DNA of 28,907 bases, taken from a virus. The notes below the pieces were generated by a model. The model was not told the DNA's origin, did not search any database, and saw only the letters and a program-made list of their open reading frames with translations. Below, in pieces: positions 5,956 to 25,865 of this stretch (position 1 is its first letter; each line of letters begins with the position of its first letter). The stretch lies in IMG/VR virus record IMGVR_UViG_3300042483_000955, positions 1 to 28,907 of that record. One strand, 5' to 3'. The translations under genes and the position numbers were made by a program.

Positions 5956-7104
5956 TTAGAAAACAGAAGAAGAATATACCAGATTTCTATCCAGTGTGCC
6001 AAGACCCATTGCATATATGACTCTATTAATAGGATCGATTATGCATCGTTCGAATTGATAATCATGATCTACCATAGGTGCAAATTCTATTGGGTAATCA
6101 CCAGGTGGGAATGCAAATACATTGCAGCTCTTATCCTTGCTTAAATAGTATTTGACTTTCTCGCCATCTGAGAGGGTTTTGTAACGGTTTTTATATTTAC
6201 TATTATTCAATAGAAAATTGTAGTAACCCGCAGCTCTGATATGAATCGGACAACCTGAAGCTATTTCAAATTGCTGATAATCTGAAAGAATGTATTTTCT
6301 ATAATTGTTGATCTTCACATTAAAAGTAATGTGTTCAGTATTGGCCAACTTGAATTCTCTCTTTATTTTTTTTAAGAGATTGACAATGTCACCGAGTTCT
6401 ACTTTATCAACAGAAAAAATAAACTTTAATACTTCTTTAAGCTTAGTTCTAGCAAAGAGAGGTGTGCTAGATTGAATAATTTCAAAACCTTTGGCGCTGA
6501 TTTTAGATAGTGGCTCATAATGAATATTAGGTTCTTTCCAAACAATATTCTGCATGTATTTCTTTTTTGCCAGCCAAATAGCATTTTTTGCAACGGTTTC
6601 AAGTTCAAAATTGAGAAAGTTTTCAGCGTTAAGATCTTTTGCGTATTTTTCCAGAATTTTATTATTGAAATCAGCTAATCGATTTTCGTATAAATTCAAT
6701 ACGAAGTCTTTTTCGTTTCCGGTCCATGTGCAATTTTCTAAAACTTCCTGAAAACTTAGATAGCAAGAATCAGTATCGATGTAAATGACTATAGGTTTTT
6801 TAATCTGGCCAGTTACTTCAATATTCATCTTAGAGTGTAGTTCTTTATCCTTAGCCCAATATTCTTGAAAATATCGATTAATCATCTTCTCAGTATAGAG
6901 GATTGCATCCTGACCTTGAAGTGTTATCGTTTCAGCTATGTCAACATTGAAAAAGTAGAACCATTCGTTACCGAATGCTCCATAGATGGAGTTAAGCATT
7001 AATTTTACAGCTTGTTCAAAGTTGTAATATTTTTGTGCTTCAGATTCTACTTCTGCAAGTTTTTCTTGTAATTGCGCTAATTGGTCTCTTTTACTCATTA
7101 TCAT
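5956..7104 (-). CDS. 43B: Split family B DNA polymerase, C-terminal half (motifs B and C, thumb)
   Basis: This 382-residue protein is the C-terminal part of a T4 gp43-type DNA polymerase. It begins with a short charged helix (residues 4-27), then motif B KLMLNSIYGAFGN (K34 to N46), motif C YIDTDS with catalytic D110 and D112, and the KKKY-containing segment LAKKKYM that matches the T4 AKKRY region. The GFEIIQSSTP segment matches the T4 METQQSSTP region at the palm-thumb junction. It lacks the exonuclease domain and motif A, which are encoded by 10985-12397. The C-terminus (LVYSSSVF) could be a clamp-binding tail like that of gp43, by inference. The start overlaps the clamp gene by 14 bases; the third codon is also ATG and may be the true start. 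Confidence 0.92.
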   Translation of the reverse strand: MIMSKRDQLAQLQEKLAEVESEAQKYYNFEQAVKLMLNSIYGAFGNEWFYFFNVDIAETITLQGQDAILYTEKMINRYFQEYWAKDKELHSKMNIEVTGQIKKPIVIYIDTDSCYLSFQEVLENCTWTGNEKDFVLNLYENRLADFNNKILEKYAKDLNAENFLNFELETVAKNAIWLAKKKYMQNIVWKEPNIHYEPLSKISAKGFEIIQSSTPLFARTKLKEVLKFIFSVDKVELGDIVNLLKKIKREFKLANTEHITFNVKINNYRKYILSDYQQFEIASGCPIHIRAAGYYNFLLNNSKYKNRYKTLSDGEKVKYYLSKDKSCNVFAFPPGDYPIEFAPMVDHDYQFERCIIDPINRVIYAMGLGTLDRNLVYSSSVF

Positions 7105-8230: not shown

Positions 8231-9856
8231 TTATCCTTCACAGCTTGAACATGAATTTATATCTCTTGCAAATGACTGTGCTGAACTTTGACTAAATTGA
8301 TAGTATAAAGTTTTAATGCCTTCTTCATGTGCATAAAGATATAATTGGTTAATATCTTTAGCAGGCACTGAAGGGTGGATCATTAGATTCAAAGACTGAG
8401 ACTGATCAATAAACTTTTGTCTTTGGGCCGCTTGTACAACTATTTCTTTTGGACTAATTTCAACAAATGATTTAAAAACTTCTTTTGTTGGAAAATCTAA
8501 ATGCTGTACACTTCCATCGCGCTTTAAGATTCCTTCCCAAACATCTGGTGTATTTAACTCATACTTTTCAAGTTCTGCAATTAAGAACGGGTTTTTATAG
8601 ATAGTTTTTGACTTTGCCAGGTCTTTAATAAAATAATTAGATTTGATTGGCTCAATACCCATACTAACCTGCCCTAGAATAAATGAACTGCTTTTGGTTG
8701 GAGCGATTGCAATTAGTGTCGTGTTTGCATAACCAGGTCTGATTGATCGATAATCCCTTTCATCATGCAACCATTTTGATGCTATTTCACTCTTTTCTTT
8801 TAGGATTGAAAAGATTTCGTGATTTAATCCTTTCGCCTGTAATGAATCAAAAGCAATTAATTTAGATTGAAACAACGAGTGGTATCCTAAAACACCTAAT
8901 CCTAATGCTCTATGTTCGTTTGCGAATCTCCACGCCCTTTTCATACCTGGCATATTATAAGATTTTAAAACAAATTCGTCCATCACTGCGTTTAAAAACA
9001 TCGTATAAACTTCGATAGCATCAGTTTCTTTAATCTCATCCCAATGTAAAAGGTTAATAGAACCTAAGCAACATACGAATGAATTAAATGAATCTGTTGG
9101 TAATTGAATTTCACTGCATAAGTTACTTGCAGTGATATCAAGACCTAGTTCTTTATAGGGAGAATTATTATTTGAATTGTCTTTAAACATGATATACGGA
9201 AATCCAAATTCGCTACGTCTTTGAATTATTTTAGCCCAAGTTTTACGCTTAGATGAATCTCCATCTTTCATTTCCTGGATCCAATTATCGGTTACAGTAA
9301 CTCCGTATTGTAAATTTTGGATAGGATTTCCTTCAGTTCCAATATCTAAGAATTCTAAAATATCATTATGTTCTACAGGTAACCAAACTGCACATGCTCC
9401 TCTTCTAGCTTCGGATTGCTTACAAACATCTACTGTAGTGTCGTATAATCTAGCATAGTGAACAGGTCCATCTGCTCTTCCACCAGTAGAAATTATTGAT
9501 CCTCTTGATCGAATTTTCCCTAAAAATGCAGAAGTTCCTCCACCATATTTAGACATCATGCCAATTTCTCTACTTGCATTTAAGATACTATCTAAATTAT
9601 CGTCAATATTACTTCCATAACAACTTACCGGAAGTCCTTTGTCTTTTCCAAAGTTAATCCAAACTGGTGTTGATAAACTATAAAATCCTTGGCTCATGTA
9701 GTCCTCAAACTTCTTTGCAAACCCTTCGATTTTCAGGTATCTTTCTGCGGTATTAGCTACATCTTTAATTCTCTGTTCCGGAGATTCCGTAATGTAACCT
9801 CTCGAGAGGAATGTTCTGCTGTCTTCGTTAAGCCAGTAATTCTTTTCGTATATCAT
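8231..9856 (-). CDS. nrdA: Class Ia-type ribonucleotide reductase large subunit
   Basis: This 541-residue catalytic subunit reduces ribonucleoside diphosphates to deoxyribonucleotides with NrdB. Active-site residues are visible: C79 in VSCYG and C262 (or C263) in FVCCLGSINL as the redox pair, N245, C247 and E249 in ASNLCSEIQLP for the thiyl radical and substrate site, Y518-Y519 in TLYYQ for radical transfer, and C-terminal C536 and C539 for re-reduction. The protein starts just before the catalytic domain, so the N-terminal ATP-cone seen in E. coli NrdA (about 761 residues) is absent and dATP inhibition through that domain is unlikely. It lies 20 bases downstream of nrdB in the same operon. 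Confidence 0.95.
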   Translation of the reverse strand: MIYEKNYWLNEDSRTFLSRGYITESPEQRIKDVANTAERYLKIEGFAKKFEDYMSQGFYSLSTPVWINFGKDKGLPVSCYGSNIDDNLDSILNASREIGMMSKYGGGTSAFLGKIRSRGSIISTGGRADGPVHYARLYDTTVDVCKQSEARRGACAVWLPVEHNDILEFLDIGTEGNPIQNLQYGVTVTDNWIQEMKDGDSSKRKTWAKIIQRRSEFGFPYIMFKDNSNNNSPYKELGLDITASNLCSEIQLPTDSFNSFVCCLGSINLLHWDEIKETDAIEVYTMFLNAVMDEFVLKSYNMPGMKRAWRFANEHRALGLGVLGYHSLFQSKLIAFDSLQAKGLNHEIFSILKEKSEIASKWLHDERDYRSIRPGYANTTLIAIAPTKSSSFILGQVSMGIEPIKSNYFIKDLAKSKTIYKNPFLIAELEKYELNTPDVWEGILKRDGSVQHLDFPTKEVFKSFVEISPKEIVVQAAQRQKFIDQSQSLNLMIHPSVPAKDINQLYLYAHEEGIKTLYYQFSQSSAQSFARDINSCSSCEG

Positions 9857-10984: not shown

Positions 10985-12397
10985 TCAGATCTCATTTTTC
11001 AATTTTTCAATTTCTTTTTTAAGCCCGTCTGCTTCGATTTGAAGCTCTTTAGATTTAGCTTTATAGACCTTTCTATTTGTATAGAGCTCAGTCAAAATGT
11101 TCTTTAAAATTGAATCTTCTTTATAATAGACCGCACCTGTGACTGAAACTATTTTATCAGGACTCTTTTCTTTCTGGGCAAGAACTGGATCTATCTTATG
11201 TATGAAAGATTCAGGACTGATATTAATCTGTCTCATGATAGAAGGATATAGAGATGCAAAGTCAAAACATGCAACAGCTCGGTGCATTCCTACAATAGGA
11301 GCTTTTACATAAGCTCCTGCATATTGAGCATCTTTCTTTGAATCGCCTGAAAAATCTCTAGCCATGACCTTGCCCTGTTCCAAGAATTTTCTGCAAAGCA
11401 TTGATTCAGTTACGGCTACTGGACTTGCTGCTTTGTATATACCGATACGACACATCGTTGCTATAGTTAATGCAATGTCCATAGTCTTGAGTTTCTGGTG
11501 GATAAGATATACGAGACATGTATCGACAACGTTATAATAAACGTATTTAGTATATTCTTTCTCGTAAAGATCCTGTATCGTACCGTTGTATTTGATTTTC
11601 TTTAGTCCTACTACGGATTCAGCAGTTGAATCGAGTGTAAAATTCTCCTTGATAAAATCTGAACGATCCCATTTTCTGTATAGTTCTAGATAATCCATCA
11701 TTCCTACATGAAGAGGAAGATTCTCTTTACCCCAGAGTTCTCCCACAGGACTTGATATCGCCGGATCTATTGCGAGCTTAGAAGCCCTGTTGACCAAATA
11801 TTTCCAATCGAAATTGATAAAGTTCCAACCTGTGACCATTGGAAACTTAGATACGAAAGACTTAAAAAATGTATAGAGAAGATCATATTCTGACTCAAAC
11901 TTTTTATAGACGAAACTGAATCGAGTTCCAGTATCTTTAAAATATTCGTCTACATCTTTTTGAATTTTTGATTGTTGATCCTGTGCAAGCTCTCCAGTTG
12001 CTAAAACTATAACCTGAGCATTTGGTGTTACGATAGCTATTGTTGTTACGGGTGTATCAGCTCTTTCTGCTTCCGGAAATCCATCTTTAACCTCAACTTC
12101 AATATCAACAAAATAGGTTTTAGGTAAATTGTATCCGAATATTTCTTCGGTTTCTTCAAAAGAGAGTTCATCTATAAATTGGATGAGAGAATATTTGTCC
12201 AGTCCTCTACCTGCTACTCTTTTTACCGGACGGCCATCCCAATTAGTGAATTTATCAGATTTGTTCTTATCCCTCCCTTCGCAAACTTCCCAATTAGCAA
12301 CCTGATCTACTCTATATTTTTTATAGTTGGTATTTCCTTCTTTGTCATAATACGATATTGTAAGGTTCGCGCCTCTTTGTTGTACGTCAAGTAGCAT
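10985..12397 (-). CDS. 43A: Split family B DNA polymerase, N-terminal half (exonuclease and motif A)
   Basis: This 470-residue protein is the N-terminal part of a T4 gp43-type polymerase. Exonuclease motifs are Exo I YFVDIEVE (D98, E100), Exo II TGWNFINFD (D197) and Exo III YYNVVDT (D292), each aligning by eye with T4 (FDIEVT, TGWNIEGFD, SYNIID). Motif A is FDFASLYPSIMRQINISPE with catalytic D379, nearly the T4 FDLTSLYPSIIRQVNISPE. It ends in a highly charged helix (about residues 441-470), the first half of the fingers, and then stops. Motifs B and C are on 5956-7104, five genes away. Combined length (852) is near T4 gp43 (898). The break therefore falls at the fingers tip, and the two chains must assemble to give one active site. 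Confidence 0.93.
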   Translation of the reverse strand: MLLDVQQRGANLTISYYDKEGNTNYKKYRVDQVANWEVCEGRDKNKSDKFTNWDGRPVKRVAGRGLDKYSLIQFIDELSFEETEEIFGYNLPKTYFVDIEVEVKDGFPEAERADTPVTTIAIVTPNAQVIVLATGELAQDQQSKIQKDVDEYFKDTGTRFSFVYKKFESEYDLLYTFFKSFVSKFPMVTGWNFINFDWKYLVNRASKLAIDPAISSPVGELWGKENLPLHVGMMDYLELYRKWDRSDFIKENFTLDSTAESVVGLKKIKYNGTIQDLYEKEYTKYVYYNVVDTCLVYLIHQKLKTMDIALTIATMCRIGIYKAASPVAVTESMLCRKFLEQGKVMARDFSGDSKKDAQYAGAYVKAPIVGMHRAVACFDFASLYPSIMRQINISPESFIHKIDPVLAQKEKSPDKIVSVTGAVYYKEDSILKNILTELYTNRKVYKAKSKELQIEADGLKKEIEKLKNEI

Positions 12398-13005: not shown

Positions 13006-13893
13006 TTACACAAGTTTCTTGAGATCCTTGTTAGCGTCATCGATAGTCTTGCTCTCTTTCTTAAAGACTCCGAGAAGCTTGTTGATGGCTCCTTTGATGG
13101 CAGATTTGATCTTATCGAAAAGAGAAGCTTCAGCTACAACTTTATCAATTGAGAAGCTATGTTTTACCTGAGTTACTTTCTTGCTTGCTTCTAGTGCTTC
13201 TTCAAGAACTCTCTTCGTTGCAGCGTTTACTTTACCTAGAGCATTTTCGAAAGCAGTCTTATAAGATGCATCTTTTCTTTCGCCACCGAAACGAGATACC
13301 TTAATAAGATATTCTTCGGTCTCTGCTAGCTTATCTCCAACTTCTTTCATGCCATCAATCATTGGCTTAACATCACCTTCGAATTGCTTAAATTGAAGTT
13401 TTTTCTCTTCTAATTCAGCTTCGAGTTTTTTGATTTGTTCTTGTAATTCGTAAAATGTCCCAATTTGGGCTTTTACTCCTGGGTCTTCTATGAAAGCTTC
13501 AAAAAGAAACTCTTCAAACATTTTTACTAAAACCACTTTTTTCTTTTTATTTTTCTTTGTTAGCGCTGATGAAGCCGGAATATCTCCAGACCCTACTTTT
13601 TGACTTGGAAACTGATTCATGGTCCCAGGATCACCAGGAAATGTTACAGGGCCCATGCCATTAACATTAGCAGGTGTAGCAGCTGAACCTTCGTCTGCTT
13701 TTTTAACTCTATCAGGCAAACCTTTGTGTTTAGTAGAAGCAAAATCTTTGAGTTGCTTTTGAGTCATTCCTTGTGCAAGATCTTCAATTTCTTTTCTATA
13801 TTCTGGATCGATATCACCAGGTTCAGTAACTCCTTTTTTAAGAGAGTATGCTTGAGCCATGAGTCTTTGTTGTGCTTTTGATGTGCTTGGCAT
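13006..13893 (-). CDS. DUF3008-like domain joined to a capsid-leader-like coiled-coil protein
   Basis: This 295-residue protein has two parts. Residues 1-65 match small phage/bacterial DUF3008-type proteins: an MPSTSKAQQRLMAQAY start, then KDFASTKHKGLP. After a low-complexity Pro/Gly/Ser linker comes a lysine run and VKMFEEFLFEAF (residues 123-134), which resembles the N-terminal leader of the neighbouring head-interior candidates and contains an L-F-E|A site at E132. The rest is helical with a coiled coil (about 148-200) and a basic C-terminus. The internal Met125 at 13521 has an A-rich upstream context (AGTAAAA), so a second translation start is possible. It is the last gene before a strong terminator. 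Confidence 0.6.
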   Translation of the reverse strand: MPSTSKAQQRLMAQAYSLKKGVTEPGDIDPEYRKEIEDLAQGMTQKQLKDFASTKHKGLPDRVKKADEGSAATPANVNGMGPVTFPGDPGTMNQFPSQKVGSGDIPASSALTKKNKKKKVVLVKMFEEFLFEAFIEDPGVKAQIGTFYELQEQIKKLEAELEEKKLQFKQFEGDVKPMIDGMKEVGDKLAETEEYLIKVSRFGGERKDASYKTAFENALGKVNAATKRVLEEALEASKKVTQVKHSFSIDKVVAEASLFDKIKSAIKGAINKLLGVFKKESKTIDDANKDLKKLV

Positions 13894-14440: not shown

Positions 14441-15700
14441 TTAAATAGCTTTTTTGCTGCCTGAAACAAGTTCAGCGTTTTTCTTTAACCATGCTAAAGC
14501 TTTACCTGCAGAATATTTTAGCATTCCTTTGAAAGTATTAGCTAAATCTTCTACGTTACCGCCTGATTTTGCTTGATAACCATAAACTGTTCCGTTGATG
14601 CTCACATAGAAAAAATCTTTAGTGACGTCTAGAGGATCTACGATGAGGTTCTCATCAATTTCAAAATCTCCGAATATTTCAACTCTTGATTCATTGAGTT
14701 GAAGATCAATTGCTTTGATCTTTTTGATCATTGCATTAACATCATCTTTTTTCCAGTTTCCGTAGATAGGTTCTTTAACTGCGTTGCCAATTGCGTGATT
14801 TACGATATTTCCATTATCGTATAAATTGTAACTACCACCTGCATATTCTTCACCATCAAGATCTAGGTCAAAAGAATCTTCATCAACTGACTTCTTATTA
14901 ACAGTGCATTTAACACCTTCTACTTTAGAAATAGCATCTGCAACTTTTTGAGCTATCTTAAGAGTCTCTTCTTTTGTAAGACCTGCACGGTTACCAAATT
15001 GAGATGCTTCATTAATTGAATTGACGATAGTAGAACCGATCTTAGAAAGAGAATAGAATTTAGCTCCGTCCTCTTCTTCTATTTTGAAGTAGTGGCTATT
15101 TCTTTGGACCCATTTAGAGGGTGCACCTGATTTAGATACTGCATCCATGAAATCAGATTCGCTAATTTTGCCGCTCTTCAAGAGTTCTAAAATCTTGTTT
15201 CTAACTGGTGCGTTGCTATATACATGTTTGATAGCTATACGACCTTCATGGAGATCTTCAGTTTCTCCGTCTTGAGCCATTTGTGCAGCTTGATGATATA
15301 GAGACGTTGGTAGATCGTACCCAGCTTTACTGGCTACCGCACGAGCTTTATTATAATCATTTGGTAATGCACCACCAAAAAAATCTAACACTGAAAAAGC
15401 ATCTGAAAATTTCTTAGATTCGTTGATAGATTCTGCAACTTTAGTTTCCCAGTATTTTTTTAATTTTTCAAATTCAGATTTACCCATATTTGATGTCATG
15501 AAATCTATGACGTCATCATATTCATCCTTTTCATCGGAATAGAATCCAGGTGTATCGATGTAATCTCTACCCATGATTTTCTTGATTTGAGATTCTCCCA
15601 TTCCATCAATTTCTTCCAAGAATTTTTCGAAATCTTTGGTATTCTTAAAGCCTTCATTTAGACTTTCGACGAATTGTTCGAAAAGTTTTACGTGTTTCAT
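14441..15700 (-). CDS. Putative capsid-targeted internal polyprotein with five protease-like sites
   Basis: This 419-residue protein begins MKHVKLFEQFVESLNE|G, like T4 internal-protein leaders (MKTYQEFIAE|A) removed by the gp21 prohead protease. The same kind of site recurs: LNE16|G, INE94|S, LHE152|G, INE231|A and LNE337|S. Cutting at all five would release the leader and five modules of 78, 58, 79, 106 and 82 residues. No enzyme motif is visible. Module 3 starts GRIAIKHV and resembles the GVVSIKGG and GMVQIAGK modules of the protein at 24630-25511. It sits in a run of leader genes (15700-13006). Function of the modules is unknown; head packaging and processing are inferred from site pattern and family knowledge of T4. 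Confidence 0.6.
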   Translation of the reverse strand: MKHVKLFEQFVESLNEGFKNTKDFEKFLEEIDGMGESQIKKIMGRDYIDTPGFYSDEKDEYDDVIDFMTSNMGKSEFEKLKKYWETKVAESINESKKFSDAFSVLDFFGGALPNDYNKARAVASKAGYDLPTSLYHQAAQMAQDGETEDLHEGRIAIKHVYSNAPVRNKILELLKSGKISESDFMDAVSKSGAPSKWVQRNSHYFKIEEEDGAKFYSLSKIGSTIVNSINEASQFGNRAGLTKEETLKIAQKVADAISKVEGVKCTVNKKSVDEDSFDLDLDGEEYAGGSYNLYDNGNIVNHAIGNAVKEPIYGNWKKDDVNAMIKKIKAIDLQLNESRVEIFGDFEIDENLIVDPLDVTKDFFYVSINGTVYGYQAKSGGNVEDLANTFKGMLKYSAGKALAWLKKNAELVSGSKKAI

Positions 15701-16989
15701 TATAATTCTATTTTTAGATCGTTTGATATTAGAGTCTTGATCGGTTTTTCTTCTGTGAAAAGATTTTCAAGAACTTTTTTATTGTTTAGGTAATCTCCGA
15801 AAGTCTTAAATTCTGAAGTCTCTTTCTTTTCGGAGATCTCCTTGATTTTATCTATCAATTTGTTAAAGTCCTTTATGATCATCGGAGTAAGAACGTCGTT
15901 AGTTCTTTCAGGGTCTCTTTTCTTTCTCAAAGAATTCAACATAATTTGAAAAATCTTGCTGTTATTAACTGAACGAGATACTATCTCTCTGGTCTTTTCG
16001 TTAGGTATGAGTTCAGTATTTAAAGAATATTCAACAGCTTTTGCAAAATCACGAGTCTCAAAATCTAATCTTTGTAAATCATCCTCTTTGGCTTCCATGT
16101 AATCGTTATAGATTGAACATACTAAATTTAAGTACTTCTCGTCTGGGAATTCACCTATTGCCATTTCGGGTTTTAAGCCGTGAGTCTCCAAATATTCTAA
16201 GACATCTAAGATCAAAATTGATACAGAATCAACAGTTCCTCTTTTGCTTGATTCTTTGCTATAAAGAGAATGCATGTATGGATCTACTATTTTGGCTGTA
16301 ACTATCTTATCGCCGCCAGGCTTGACAAATTTAAAAATAATAGAGTCGATAACTGCATTTTCATCATTTGATAAAAGAGGTCGATAAAGATAATAACCCT
16401 TAGGATCGAGTATGCTAAAAAGATATTTGAAAAAAGAATCAGTTCCGAGTATTTCTTCTAACTGGTCTTTTGGTGTAGAAAGAAATTCAAGAAGTTTGGC
16501 TTTTCTTTCTTCGTCCAATTTACCTGCAAATAGCGGAGGATTTTCCTGTACGTTAAGAGTATGTGCCCACTCAGATAATACCCTCGGATCTTCTATCGTC
16601 TTAAGAGTTCTTAGTGTCTCTGGTGATTTGATTAAAATCCTGCTAAGTATGAGGCCTGAAGGAGGAACTTTGCCATATATCGAGGCCTCGCCTGGAAAAT
16701 AATCAAAGCCAAACAGCCAGTCTTCTGGCATCTTTGCTTTGGCTTCAGCCGAAAGTTCTTCAAAATGACGAATGCCCTTTTCATAAAAGAGAGCCAGTGT
16801 CCTGTCAATGAGATTGATCGGCTCTTCACTCTTCTTCAAATATAGGATAGAAGAACCTTTTTTCATTACATAAAAGTCTGAAGCATTTATCTTTTCTGAG
16901 ATAATTACGTATGAATCGAAGAGATCTTTTAAGAAGTTCTCTCCTCGCTCTCTATAAAGCTTGTCTAATTCCGGTATGCTGCTTATCAT
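15700..16989 (-). CDS. Putative ligase-fold nucleotidyltransferase
   Basis: This 429-residue protein has SEKINASDFYV near its N-terminus (K33), resembling motif I (K-x-D/N-G/A) of covalent nucleotidyltransferases such as RNA/DNA ligases. ILYLKK then occupies a motif Ia-like position, and WLFGFDYFPG (91-100) a motif III-like position. Residues 100-429 are mostly helical and unassigned. If correct, K33 would be adenylated and the enzyme would join or cap nucleic acid ends, as phage ligases do. Motifs IV and V are not obvious, so this is tentative. The stop overlaps by one base with the start of the downstream polyprotein gene (shared A in TAATG), and the start follows an A/T-rich GAATAAATAAGAAAT tract. 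Confidence 0.4.
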   Translation of the reverse strand: MISSIPELDKLYRERGENFLKDLFDSYVIISEKINASDFYVMKKGSSILYLKKSEEPINLIDRTLALFYEKGIRHFEELSAEAKAKMPEDWLFGFDYFPGEASIYGKVPPSGLILSRILIKSPETLRTLKTIEDPRVLSEWAHTLNVQENPPLFAGKLDEERKAKLLEFLSTPKDQLEEILGTDSFFKYLFSILDPKGYYLYRPLLSNDENAVIDSIIFKFVKPGGDKIVTAKIVDPYMHSLYSKESSKRGTVDSVSILILDVLEYLETHGLKPEMAIGEFPDEKYLNLVCSIYNDYMEAKEDDLQRLDFETRDFAKAVEYSLNTELIPNEKTREIVSRSVNNSKIFQIMLNSLRKKRDPERTNDVLTPMIIKDFNKLIDKIKEISEKKETSEFKTFGDYLNNKKVLENLFTEEKPIKTLISNDLKIEL

Positions 16990-24032: not shown

Positions 24033-24617
24033 TTAAGCTTCTTGTGCAATCATTGCGTGGCAAACGTTAACAGAGATCCAACCTGCTTTATTGAAGAACT
24101 CTTTCGCGATCTTTTTAACTTTGTCAGCTTCTCCGCTAGTTATTGGATCTTCTCCCATATCGTTCCAGTCTTTTACAGCTTCTTTGAAGGTGCCTTCGAA
24201 ATCTTTCGATTTGTCGGCATATTCTGGATCGCTCTGTCCAGAAGTATCTGTGTTATAATCTGTCCAATATTTGATGTCGATAGCTTCATGTATCTTGATC
24301 TCGTGTGTATCTTCAGAATTACCTTCTAACAGTTCAGGATAATATTCTTTGATATCATCAGCGTCCATTTCATAAAATTCGCTCTGTAGATAACCTAAGA
24401 TGTCTTTTTTCTTGCCTGTTACGTCAAAAGTTCCAGGATTGCTTTTAACCTCTTTTACTTTGATGTTGTATTTTTTGAAAGCATCTTTTGCGGCTTTGTC
24501 TTCTTCTGTATCTGAATCATCCCAAGCCATATCTAAGTCAATAGTTATAACTTCATTAGGCTTTTTAGAAGAAAGAGCTTCGTTTACGAAGTCTTCGAAT
24601 AATTTTACGTGTTTCAT
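24033..24617 (-). CDS. Leader-bearing putative internal head protein
   Basis: This 194-residue acidic protein starts MKHVKLFEDFVNE|A, the leader type shared with 14441-15700, and has a second similar site, IHE111|A. Processing would give modules of 98 and 83 residues. Module 1 contains ILGYLQSEFYEMDADDIKEY, a helix seen in other phage proteins as far as I recall. Module 2 has no known motif. The first 11 start-codon-proximal bases (ATGAAACACGT) are identical to those of the genes starting at 15700 and 25511. It is flanked by another leader gene and the RuvC-like gene. Packaging into the head is inferred. Confidence 0.55.
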   Translation of the reverse strand: MKHVKLFEDFVNEALSSKKPNEVITIDLDMAWDDSDTEEDKAAKDAFKKYNIKVKEVKSNPGTFDVTGKKKDILGYLQSEFYEMDADDIKEYYPELLEGNSEDTHEIKIHEAIDIKYWTDYNTDTSGQSDPEYADKSKDFEGTFKEAVKDWNDMGEDPITSGEADKVKKIAKEFFNKAGWISVNVCHAMIAQEA

Positions 24618-24629
24618 TAATATGATTTT

Positions 24630-25511
24630 TTAGAATGTGTTGTTCATAATTACATCCTGAACGTCGTCTACTAAGTAAGACTTCACCTTATCAGCGCCTG
24701 GCTTCAAATATTCTTTCTTCATAAGATCGTCAACGATGATAGTGGCTAAGACCTTAGCACCTGATGGCTTGTTTTTTCCGGCTATTTGCACCATTCCTTC
24801 GTTGAGTTCTGATTCATCGATCTTCTTAGCTGCAAGTTTAGGATCTTTTTTAGACATGTTGTCCATATAAGTACCGTTACCATACCAAGCTATCACCGCA
24901 CCGGTATCGGCAGATGAATTAAAATTTCCGCCTGCATTAAAAACATCGACTTCATTTGCGCCTTGTGCAATCAGCTCTTTTGCAAATGACATTGCCTTTG
25001 ATCTGTCGCTGAATTTTTTGCTTCCTCTGACGTGTTGATTAGTGTAAATAACTTCGAAAGCTTCGTTAAGAGATTCAGACATAGATGTTGTAGCTAAAAG
25101 AGAAGCAATAGCTTCTACTAGATCCTCAGTCTTCTTTTTCACGGGAATGATTTCCATGTCAACGAGCTTGTTGAGAACTTTGTGAGCCAAGATTCGACCA
25201 CCTTTGATAGAAACTACACCTTCGTTTAAAGTTTTTTCGGATTCATAAACCGTAATTGCGACATTAGTGCTTTTTTCATAGCTGACTAACTTTAAATTCA
25301 TTGCATCTCCAACCTTTTTCATTTCAGGCTCGCTCATATAAGTAGAAGTTCTAACCTCGTAGCCTTTGCCTGCTTTAGCTATTTTTTTGATTGCATTAGG
25401 ATTATTGCCGGTCTCATTTTCAAAATGCAAAGGAAATTCATATTGAAAATCTTTGAGATTTCCGTCGTAGGCTTCGTTAAGAAAGCTTTCTAGTGTTGAT
25501 ACGTGTTTCAT
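24630..25511 (-). CDS. Putative capsid-targeted polyprotein with duplicated module
   Basis: This 293-residue protein starts MKHVSTLESFLNE|A and carries three further sites of identical type: LNE97|G, LNE150|A and LNE238|G. They divide it into the leader and modules of 84, 53, 88 and 55 residues. Modules 2 (GVVSIKGG...KVLNKLV) and 4 (GMVQIAGK...KVLATIIV) look like duplicates of each other, and both begin exactly at an LNE|G site, so the sites coincide with domain borders. No enzyme motif is visible. It is the middle gene of a run starting from the AATATATAGA motif at 25878. The model is a head-packaged precursor cut by the prohead protease, inferred from T4. Confidence 0.6.
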   Translation of the reverse strand: MKHVSTLESFLNEAYDGNLKDFQYEFPLHFENETGNNPNAIKKIAKAGKGYEVRTSTYMSEPEMKKVGDAMNLKLVSYEKSTNVAITVYESEKTLNEGVVSIKGGRILAHKVLNKLVDMEIIPVKKKTEDLVEAIASLLATTSMSESLNEAFEVIYTNQHVRGSKKFSDRSKAMSFAKELIAQGANEVDVFNAGGNFNSSADTGAVIAWYGNGTYMDNMSKKDPKLAAKKIDESELNEGMVQIAGKNKPSGAKVLATIIVDDLMKKEYLKPGADKVKSYLVDDVQDVIMNNTF

Positions 25512-25514
25512 ATT

Positions 25515-25865
25515 TTAAATTCTTTTTCCTAAATTAAAACCAATAGCAGCTCCAACGAGTCTACTGGTAAGAAGATCGAATAGGAGACCTTTTTCGACTC
25601 CTAATGCATTTGCTACTATTTTTCCGACTGATTGACCTAAAGCAAAGCCCGTAAGCCCTCCGAGTATAGATCCGATAAAGCCTTCATTCGCAAGTTCTTC
25701 CTGTAGTTGTTCTATTGTATAACCGTTGTCTTTTGCTTTTTTGATAAAAGCTTCAACAGCTTCATCTATAGCATTTTGATCAACTGATTCGTTCATTATT
25801 GCTTCAAAAGCTTGAAAATCTTCTTTTTCTCCTATGAACTCATTGAATGATTGCATGTCTTTCAT
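25515..25865 (-). CDS. Leader-bearing protein with glycine-rich hydrophobic C-terminus
   Basis: This 116-residue protein has a short leader-like N-terminus (MKDMQSFNEFIGE) and candidate sites at IGE13|K, MNE26|S and ANE61|G. The C-terminal part (62-116) is hydrophobic and glycine-rich (GSILGGLTGFALGQSVG, then LVGAAIGFNLG), like glycine-zipper membrane segments. If cut at ANE61|G, the product would be a 55-residue potentially membrane-active peptide carried in the head; this is speculation. The start is 12 bases downstream of an AATATATAGA motif, so any transcript from it would have a very short leader. The three-base gap to the next gene marks it as first in the operon. Confidence 0.5.
   Translation of the reverse strand: MKDMQSFNEFIGEKEDFQAFEAIMNESVDQNAIDEAVEAFIKKAKDNGYTIEQLQEELANEGFIGSILGGLTGFALGQSVGKIVANALGVEKGLLFDLLTSRLVGAAIGFNLGKRI

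Follow-up and report, generated by a model that had tools for sequence, protein, structure and literature searches.

ORF A (positions 24630 to 25511, minus strand) encodes a protein of 293 aa in which short strings resembling protease cleavage sites coincide with the borders of apparent modules. This raises the question of whether the sites are functional and what kind of protein would be built from units bounded by them. The gene lies in the window, by which we mean the whole stretch of DNA analyzed here (28,907 nucleotides), a 28.9-kb piece of an uncultivated T4-like phage (record G000) that carries replication genes and a tail-tube-like gene; most gene names in the window are our reading of the translations. 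The family B DNA polymerase seems to be encoded by two ORFs (positions 10985 to 12397 and 5956 to 7104) with ribonucleotide reductase genes between them, as it does in the nearest relative, G009 (L018). The ORF resembling the ribonucleotide reductase large subunit has 541 aa in the window (positions 8231 to 9856) versus 820 aa in that relative (L018:5136-7598) and may be truncated or split. The late-promoter string TATAAATA was not found in the window.

The translation of ORF A contains four LNE|[A/G] sites, at residues 13|14, 97|98, 150|151, and 238|239, which divide it into a leader and four modules. The leader, residues 1 to 13 (25473 to 25511, on the minus strand like all the ORFs and modules of the window described here), resembles a capsid targeting sequence and reads MKHVSTLESFLNE|AYDG across its site. 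Module A1 (residues 14 to 97; 25221 to 25472) ends in TLNE|G, within EKTLNE|GVVSIKGG (P1 = 97); A2 (residues 98 to 150; 25062 to 25220) runs from GVVSIKGG to SESLNE|AFEV (P1 = 150); A3 (residues 151 to 238; 24798 to 25061) ends in SELNE|G, within ESELNE|GMVQIAGK (P1 = 238); and A4 (residues 239 to 293; 24633 to 24797) runs from GMVQIAGK to NNTF. The earlier note had A2 and A4 each beginning exactly at an LNE|G site, and the translation bears this out, both starts directly following LNE at residues 97 and 238. A structure model of ORF A reached a pLDDT of 53, with 135 of 293 residues below 50 and all four sites in stretches below 50. The model is poor because the module fragments failed to align as one chain, and its final alignment excludes the A1 rows and two A3 rows.

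ORF A stands in one row with ORFs C and B, in the order C, A, B and each leader-first, and ORF D is the second polyprotein of the window. All four carry an N-terminal leader of 10 to 20 residues ending in [L/I]xE, with Val at P3 in the case of ORF B. ORF B (24033 to 24617; 194 aa) consists of a leader (residues 1 to 13, VNE|A), B1 (residues 14 to 111, ending IHE|A), and B2 (residues 112 to 194, AIDIKYW...), and a homology edge falls at residue 111. By eye, a B1-like stretch is joined to A4 in L050, and the ends of L040 and L045 resemble B2. The copy of ORF B in G009 (L017:5286-5642) has lost most of B2 but retains the final eight residues of that module; this deletion does not run from site to site. 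ORF C (25515 to 25865; 116 aa) has the leader MKDMQSFNEFIGE|K and a weak match to PHROG 2667, “internal head protein” (E = 0.025); the best PHROG match of ORF A is a family of unknown function at only E = 0.21. ORF D (14441 to 15700; 419 aa) comprises a leader (residues 1 to 16; 15653 to 15700; ending SLNE|G) and five segments: D1 (residues 17 to 94; 15419 to 15652; ending SINE|S), D2 (residues 95 to 152; 15245 to 15418; ending DLHE|G), D3 (residues 153 to 231; 15008 to 15244; GRIAIKHV...SINE|A), which belongs to a large module family, D4 (residues 232 to 337; 14690 to 15007; ending QLNE|S), and D5 (residues 338 to 419; 14444 to 14689). Together, ORFs A to D contain 23 [LIVMF]xE[AGS] strings, compared with 5.7 ± 2.2 in shuffles that preserve their composition (P = 0.0005, the lowest value that 2,000 shuffles allow), and 25 other ORFs of the window contain 32 such strings, with 30.5 expected.

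Directly upstream of the polyproteins in both lineages is a ligase-like gene (..VVEKISAPSFYV.. / ..IISEKINASDFYV..; window positions 15700 to 16989; L006:3883-5766, with counterparts in L007 to L009), which in L006 to L009 is apparently fused to a nucleotidyltransferase-like domain (FVGRFQPFTLGHAK). ORF F (13006 to 13893) has a DUF3008 N terminus and an internal leader-like string, VKMFEEFLFE|A, with P1 at residue 132. The motif NxxGMGxVxxP...GSGDxP was noticed at three loci (ORF F itself, L015:9555-11231, and L009:6682-7593); it is present in the DUF3008 leader proteins and also immediately follows a putative cut site near the N terminus of the major capsid protein (NVYGMGAVSFPGDPG...GSGDKP).

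According to the available portion of an account of T4 (PMC9026906), the prohead protease gp21 cleaves after L/I-X-E, and the leaders of the internal proteins, the capsid targeting sequences, are 10 to 19 residues long; in IPIII, residues 4 and 7 serve targeting and residues 8 and 10 serve processing, with Asp at position 10 blocking processing. In a 10-residue leader, these positions correspond to P7, P4, P3, and P1 relative to the cut. Among the leaders that we collected, which were chosen by [LIVMF]xE only and not by aromatics, an aromatic residue stood at P7 in 33 of 52 and at P4 in 35 of 52, compared with 21 and 18, respectively, of 167 internal border sites (in the leader of ORF A, P7 is Leu and P4 is Phe). 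Because the aromatic residues are found at leaders and mostly not at internal sites, the leaders look like targeting and processing signals and the internal sites like processing signals only.

A protease of the S77 (gp21) family is encoded in 15 of 18 large polyprotein-bearing records and in 5 of the 9 first records, including G009, and its His and Ser motifs are kept in all 11 of the S77 ORFs read. There was no S77 match in the other three large records (G006, G013, and G014) or in the other four first records (among them G006, which belongs to both sets), and no protease gene was recognized in the 28.9-kb window. In L002 to L005, the polyprotein gene adjoins the S77 gene or is near it. In L015:6975-8819, L151 to L156, L158 to L160, and L150:18049-19947 (LR756500), the S77 protease continues into a long C-terminal region (about 570 to 640 aa in the ORFs read, several of which are cut by the end of the stretch). 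In G009 this region contains numerous YxxYLAEN-like repeats, as though a single gene supplied both the protease and the core scaffold. Within 20 kb of the major capsid gene of LR756500, we saw the protease-core gene and no polyprotein.

Each module of ORF A recurs elsewhere with different neighbors. The first search for ORF A relatives returned eight contigs, all of which matched approximately residues 11 to 97 (A1), one of them to residue 111, and these matches sit in proteins of 414 to 1,008 aa whose remaining parts differ. A1 is present in 13 distinct proteins with nine upstream contexts, A2 at nine loci (six distinct proteins including that of the window, all starting E|G), A3 also in L043, L047 (right behind the leader), and L098, and A4 at 21 loci. 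The 363-aa counterpart of ORF A in G009 retains A2, at 81% over the module, and A4, at 64%, with unrelated segments replacing A1 and A3, and the retained modules start after ITE|G and IDE|A. The loss of LNE sites in homologues that the earlier note would have taken as contrary evidence was therefore not seen; the sites persist as cleavable-type variants. In the G009 counterpart of ORF D (L018:271-1053), D2 and D4 are absent, with the gaps running from site to site, and D4 is found in the L006 and L009 polyproteins. The alignment of L007 with L008 shows 93% identity across its first 544 columns and 85% across its last 318, and L007 has two additional modules between sites. Tandem duplications bounded by sites occur in L098, L125, L104, L037, and L048; the two copies in L098 share 90% identity and are ended by IKESVNE|A or IKE|S. 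L143:1236-4358 encodes a single 1,040-aa protein of about a dozen modules, several junctions of which share the identical 18-nt seam GAATCAGTTACTGAGGCT.

The earlier note suggested looking in related phages for a module as a stand-alone leader-bearing gene, and A4 occurs in this form, as a gene of 66 to 71 aa, at 6 of its 21 loci (L052, L058, and L066 to L069), one example being the 66-aa product MKHIQNFDSFIGE|AMVQVAGK.... Leader and A1 form a gene of 172 aa in L023, and in L026 this same gene is fused behind a DUF3008-like protein with its MKHLKNFESFVNE leader retained inside the chain. In G009, the C-terminal module common to many polyproteins has a gene to itself with a leader of its own (L017:3173-4165), and in the fused forms of the module the leader-like MKTKFIYESFGDFINSLNE precedes it. 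Exchange, insertion, loss, tandem duplication, and stand-alone forms were all observed with borders at the sites, and they strongly support the conclusion of the earlier note that the cut sites delimit units and are probably functional.

We then compared the edges of homology with the positions of sites in a set of 88 proteins (45,608 aa), of which 75 were the non-near-duplicates among 135 proteins from 136 match loci (L059 was without an ORF) and 13 were others. Sharp edges were taken from trimmed HSPs of at least 45% identity with dissimilar flanks, and an edge was counted when it lay within 4 residues of [LIVMF]xE|[AGS]. This was the case for 139 of 232 N-terminal edges (60%), compared with a null of 12% and a maximum of 44 in 500 circular shifts, and the decoys LxD, LxK, and LxQ/N gave 2, 2, and 0 of 232 (0 to 1%). 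Among C-terminal edges, 120 of 279 lay near a site (null, 12%; maximum, 54), with 2, 19, and 18 of 279 for the Asp, Lys, and Gln/Asn decoys. When the identity filter was removed, 149 of 462 N-terminal edges (32%) and 127 of 406 C-terminal edges were near a site, versus a null of 11%, and two Glu-containing decoys rose approximately 2.3-fold, probably because linkers are rich in Glu and Ser.

The residue at P1 was Glu in 13 of 13 distinct proteins for A1, 6 of 6 for A2, 15 of 15 for A4, and 46 of 46 for the C-terminal module, the A2 and A4 counts supporting retention of the ORF A sites. For D3 the count was 41 of 51, or 50 of 51 when rows with a non-Glu border residue and a preceding Glu were moved by one, the border being extrapolated; D4 starts, whose border could not be extrapolated, were excluded. 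Because the sequences are related, these counts are not independent events, and the fairest figure is that for unrelated upstream contexts, in which Glu occupied P1 in 55 of 56, against a background of 8.5% Glu in the protein set. At junctions of the C-terminal module, P3 was Leu, Ile, or Val and P1′ was Ala or Ser in 46 of 46. The pattern is looser elsewhere: P3 is Thr, Cys, or Ala in 5 of 15 members of the A4 family, and P1′ is Arg in 26 of 51 D3 junctions, a residue not mentioned in the available portion of the T4 account (PMC9026906). Since [LIVMF]xE[AGS] strings are also conserved within modules (for example, RNKMLE|A in D3), sequence alone is insufficient to define cutting.

The earlier note had reached its view of the sites by way of a duplication, taking A2 and A4 to be homologous copies and the segment that begins at the LHE|G site of ORF D, D3, to be possibly a third relative. 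In local alignment, A2 and A4 scored 27 versus a shuffle mean of 22.8 (P = 0.18). Comparison of their profiles with relatives included (hhalign) gave P = 0.001 at 21% probability over 36 to 37 columns, with an effective diversity of 1.4 for A2, and ranked the pair 14th among 496 comparisons of 32 module families, in which most top-ranked pairs seem to us to be parts of a single module that an internal site divides. Both modules are about 55 aa long, start after the cut with [GA][MV]V, and are modeled, at low confidence, as two helices. The pairwise shuffles, the profile comparison, and the all-against-all null therefore leave homology of A2 and A4 suggestive rather than established. D3 does start at the site LHE|G (152|153), but neither pairwise tests against A2 and A4 (P = 0.29 and 0.24) nor profile tests (P = 0.11 and 0.17) were significant, the D3 family numbering 114 viral loci of which the best 80 were kept, and a third copy is unsupported. 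The duplication on which the earlier note relied is thus weakly supported and its third copy unsupported, whereas the conclusion that it drew about the sites is upheld by the relatives.

The modules themselves turn over rapidly. When the 88 proteins were cut at the motif, 417 fragments of at least 30 aa grouped into 128 families, a count in which some modules are oversplit; 50 of the families have at least two members, and module size ranges from about 30 to 310 aa. Searches with tblastn against 50,697 phage records gave no match for ORF A, ORF D, stand-alone A4, or the L006, L143, and L045 polyproteins, and none of 76 pattern matches in bacterial genomes encodes an A4 relative. By major capsid protein, the nearest named phages are an uncultured 462-kb phage (62%) and the Prevotella Lak phages (41%). 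Among 17 proteins scanned against Pfam, the only domain above the cutoff was DUF3008 (L005 and ORF F); the PADLOC defense library gave no match for seven proteins, PHROGs gave none for the commonest module, and none of the three libraries gave a usable match to a module function. The model of the C-terminal module (pLDDT, 79) matched nothing in PDB or BFVD at E ≤ 0.001.

Taken together, these observations make it likely, in our view, that ORFs A to D encode capsid-targeted cargo, in the form of polyproteins assembled from shuffled cassettes and cleaved by the prohead protease. Several observations weigh against this reading: no protease gene was recognized in the window and some records gave no S77 match, the late-promoter string was not found, motif strings are conserved inside modules, Arg is frequent at P1′ of D3 junctions, P3 departs from the motif in part of the A4 family, the deletion in the G009 copy of ORF B is not bounded by sites, and the border signal weakens when the identity filter is removed. 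That the sites are instead common acidic motifs and the resemblance of the modules noise is very improbable: chance does stand for the pairwise claim about A2 and A4, whose similarity is not significant, but for the sites it is refuted by their excess in ORFs A to D only, their coincidence with borders, and the conserved P1. A reading that deserves more attention, although we consider it unlikely, is that these are uncut multidomain proteins in which [LV]NE is an interdomain linker spread by recombination at short repeated DNA seams. The sole direct repeat of at least 14 nt in ORF A (18 nt, 89%) joins two junctions, the seam in L143 is identical at three junctions, and the sites of ORF A all lie in the low-pLDDT stretches mentioned above, as this reading would have it. 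A plain linker, however, has no need of the T4 gp21 motif, and the residues chosen are hard to reconcile with one, given that P1 is Glu in nearly every context though Asp is about as common (8.5% versus 7.9%), that LxD is depleted at borders, and that P3 is hydrophobic only while P2 varies (46 of 46 for the C-terminal module). Moreover, codon identity at the seams is only mildly elevated (0.64 versus 0.54; 295 codon pairs, 5 proteins).

Slightly less improbable than the linker, yet still an outside prospect, is that the chains belong to the prohead core or scaffold and are chopped by the protease for clearance, so that the sites would serve removal and the modules would not be cargo. Such processing has a precedent in the T4 core proteins gp22, gp67, and gp68, which are cut to fragments according to the available portions of PMC5694885 and PMC9026906, and the position of the polyprotein gene beside or near the S77 gene in L002 to L005 would suit it. 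Against it, the modules are conserved as wholes, some of them as stand-alone leader-bearing genes; the repertoire of 128 families is one of rapid turnover, whereas one would expect conservation in a scaffold; and the protease genes already bear a long core-like C-terminal region.

Under the cargo polyprotein model, which we read from sequence patterns, the 13 to 16 N-terminal residues would act as a T4-like capsid targeting sequence and bring the chain into the prohead core, where a gp21-type (S77) protease would cut after [LIV]xE, taking off the leader and freeing the modules separately. The freed modules would be small internal head proteins that stay with the DNA and probably enter the host by ejection. 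A self-contained cut site at each module would allow modules to be gained, lost, exchanged, duplicated, or produced on their own while their neighbors stay intact, and the genes would evolve as cassette arrays. With somewhat less assurance, we lean toward a broader version in which, in a large group of uncultivated T4-like phages, one leader imports up to a dozen unrelated ejection proteins, the protease separates them in the head, and the seam doubles as a joint for exchange of cassettes between phages. T-even internal proteins are highly diverse defense proteins of which the targeting sequence alone is conserved, as described in the available portion of PMC3012670. From the similar fast turnover of modules behind a conserved leader, we infer that the modules are packaged and probably ejected proteins, and by the same analogy many of them are perhaps directed against host defenses.

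If this is true, it supplies a sequence rule for packaged and probably injected proteins, namely, that they are the stretches which [LIV]xE sites delimit downstream of an FxxF[LIV]xE leader; the approximately 50 recurring module families without known function become candidate host-takeover or antidefense proteins; and a protease motif can serve as an evolutionary joint. Polyprotein processing is familiar from RNA viruses. To our knowledge, polyproteins are not a recognized multiprotein delivery route for tailed phages, in which a cargo polyprotein strategy would be unusual. Among open-license papers, we found none on shuffled prohead protease cargo polyproteins.

The closest parallels are the T4 internal proteins IPI, IPII, and IPIII and Alt, which share with ORFs A to D a short leader ending in [LI]xE, conserved targeting and processing positions, highly variable cargo, and an encoded S77 protease, here in related records. 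As far as the available T4 accounts go, each of those proteins is one unit of cargo with a propeptide at its terminus (in Alt, at the C terminus too), whereas the chains described here join several unrelated modules, every one of which ends in a site, and the modules are shuffled. The inner head proteins of phiKZ and SPN3US, which have long propeptides, are likewise cut by a prohead protease after a short Glu-ending motif, with several cuts per precursor, but in the available descriptions the additional cuts fall within propeptides that are removed, whereas the segments between sites here are conserved, exchangeable modules. Finally, the polyvalent proteins of Iyer et al. (2017; PMC5512222) are, in the available portion of that paper, multidomain proteins of many combinations that are predicted to be packaged and injected, with recognizable enzyme domains and, for some, a suggested autoproteolysis by an embedded peptidase. 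Unlike them, the proteins scanned here yielded no Pfam domain above the cutoff apart from the DUF3008 N terminus of some chains, and the separator is a short site of the prohead protease type.
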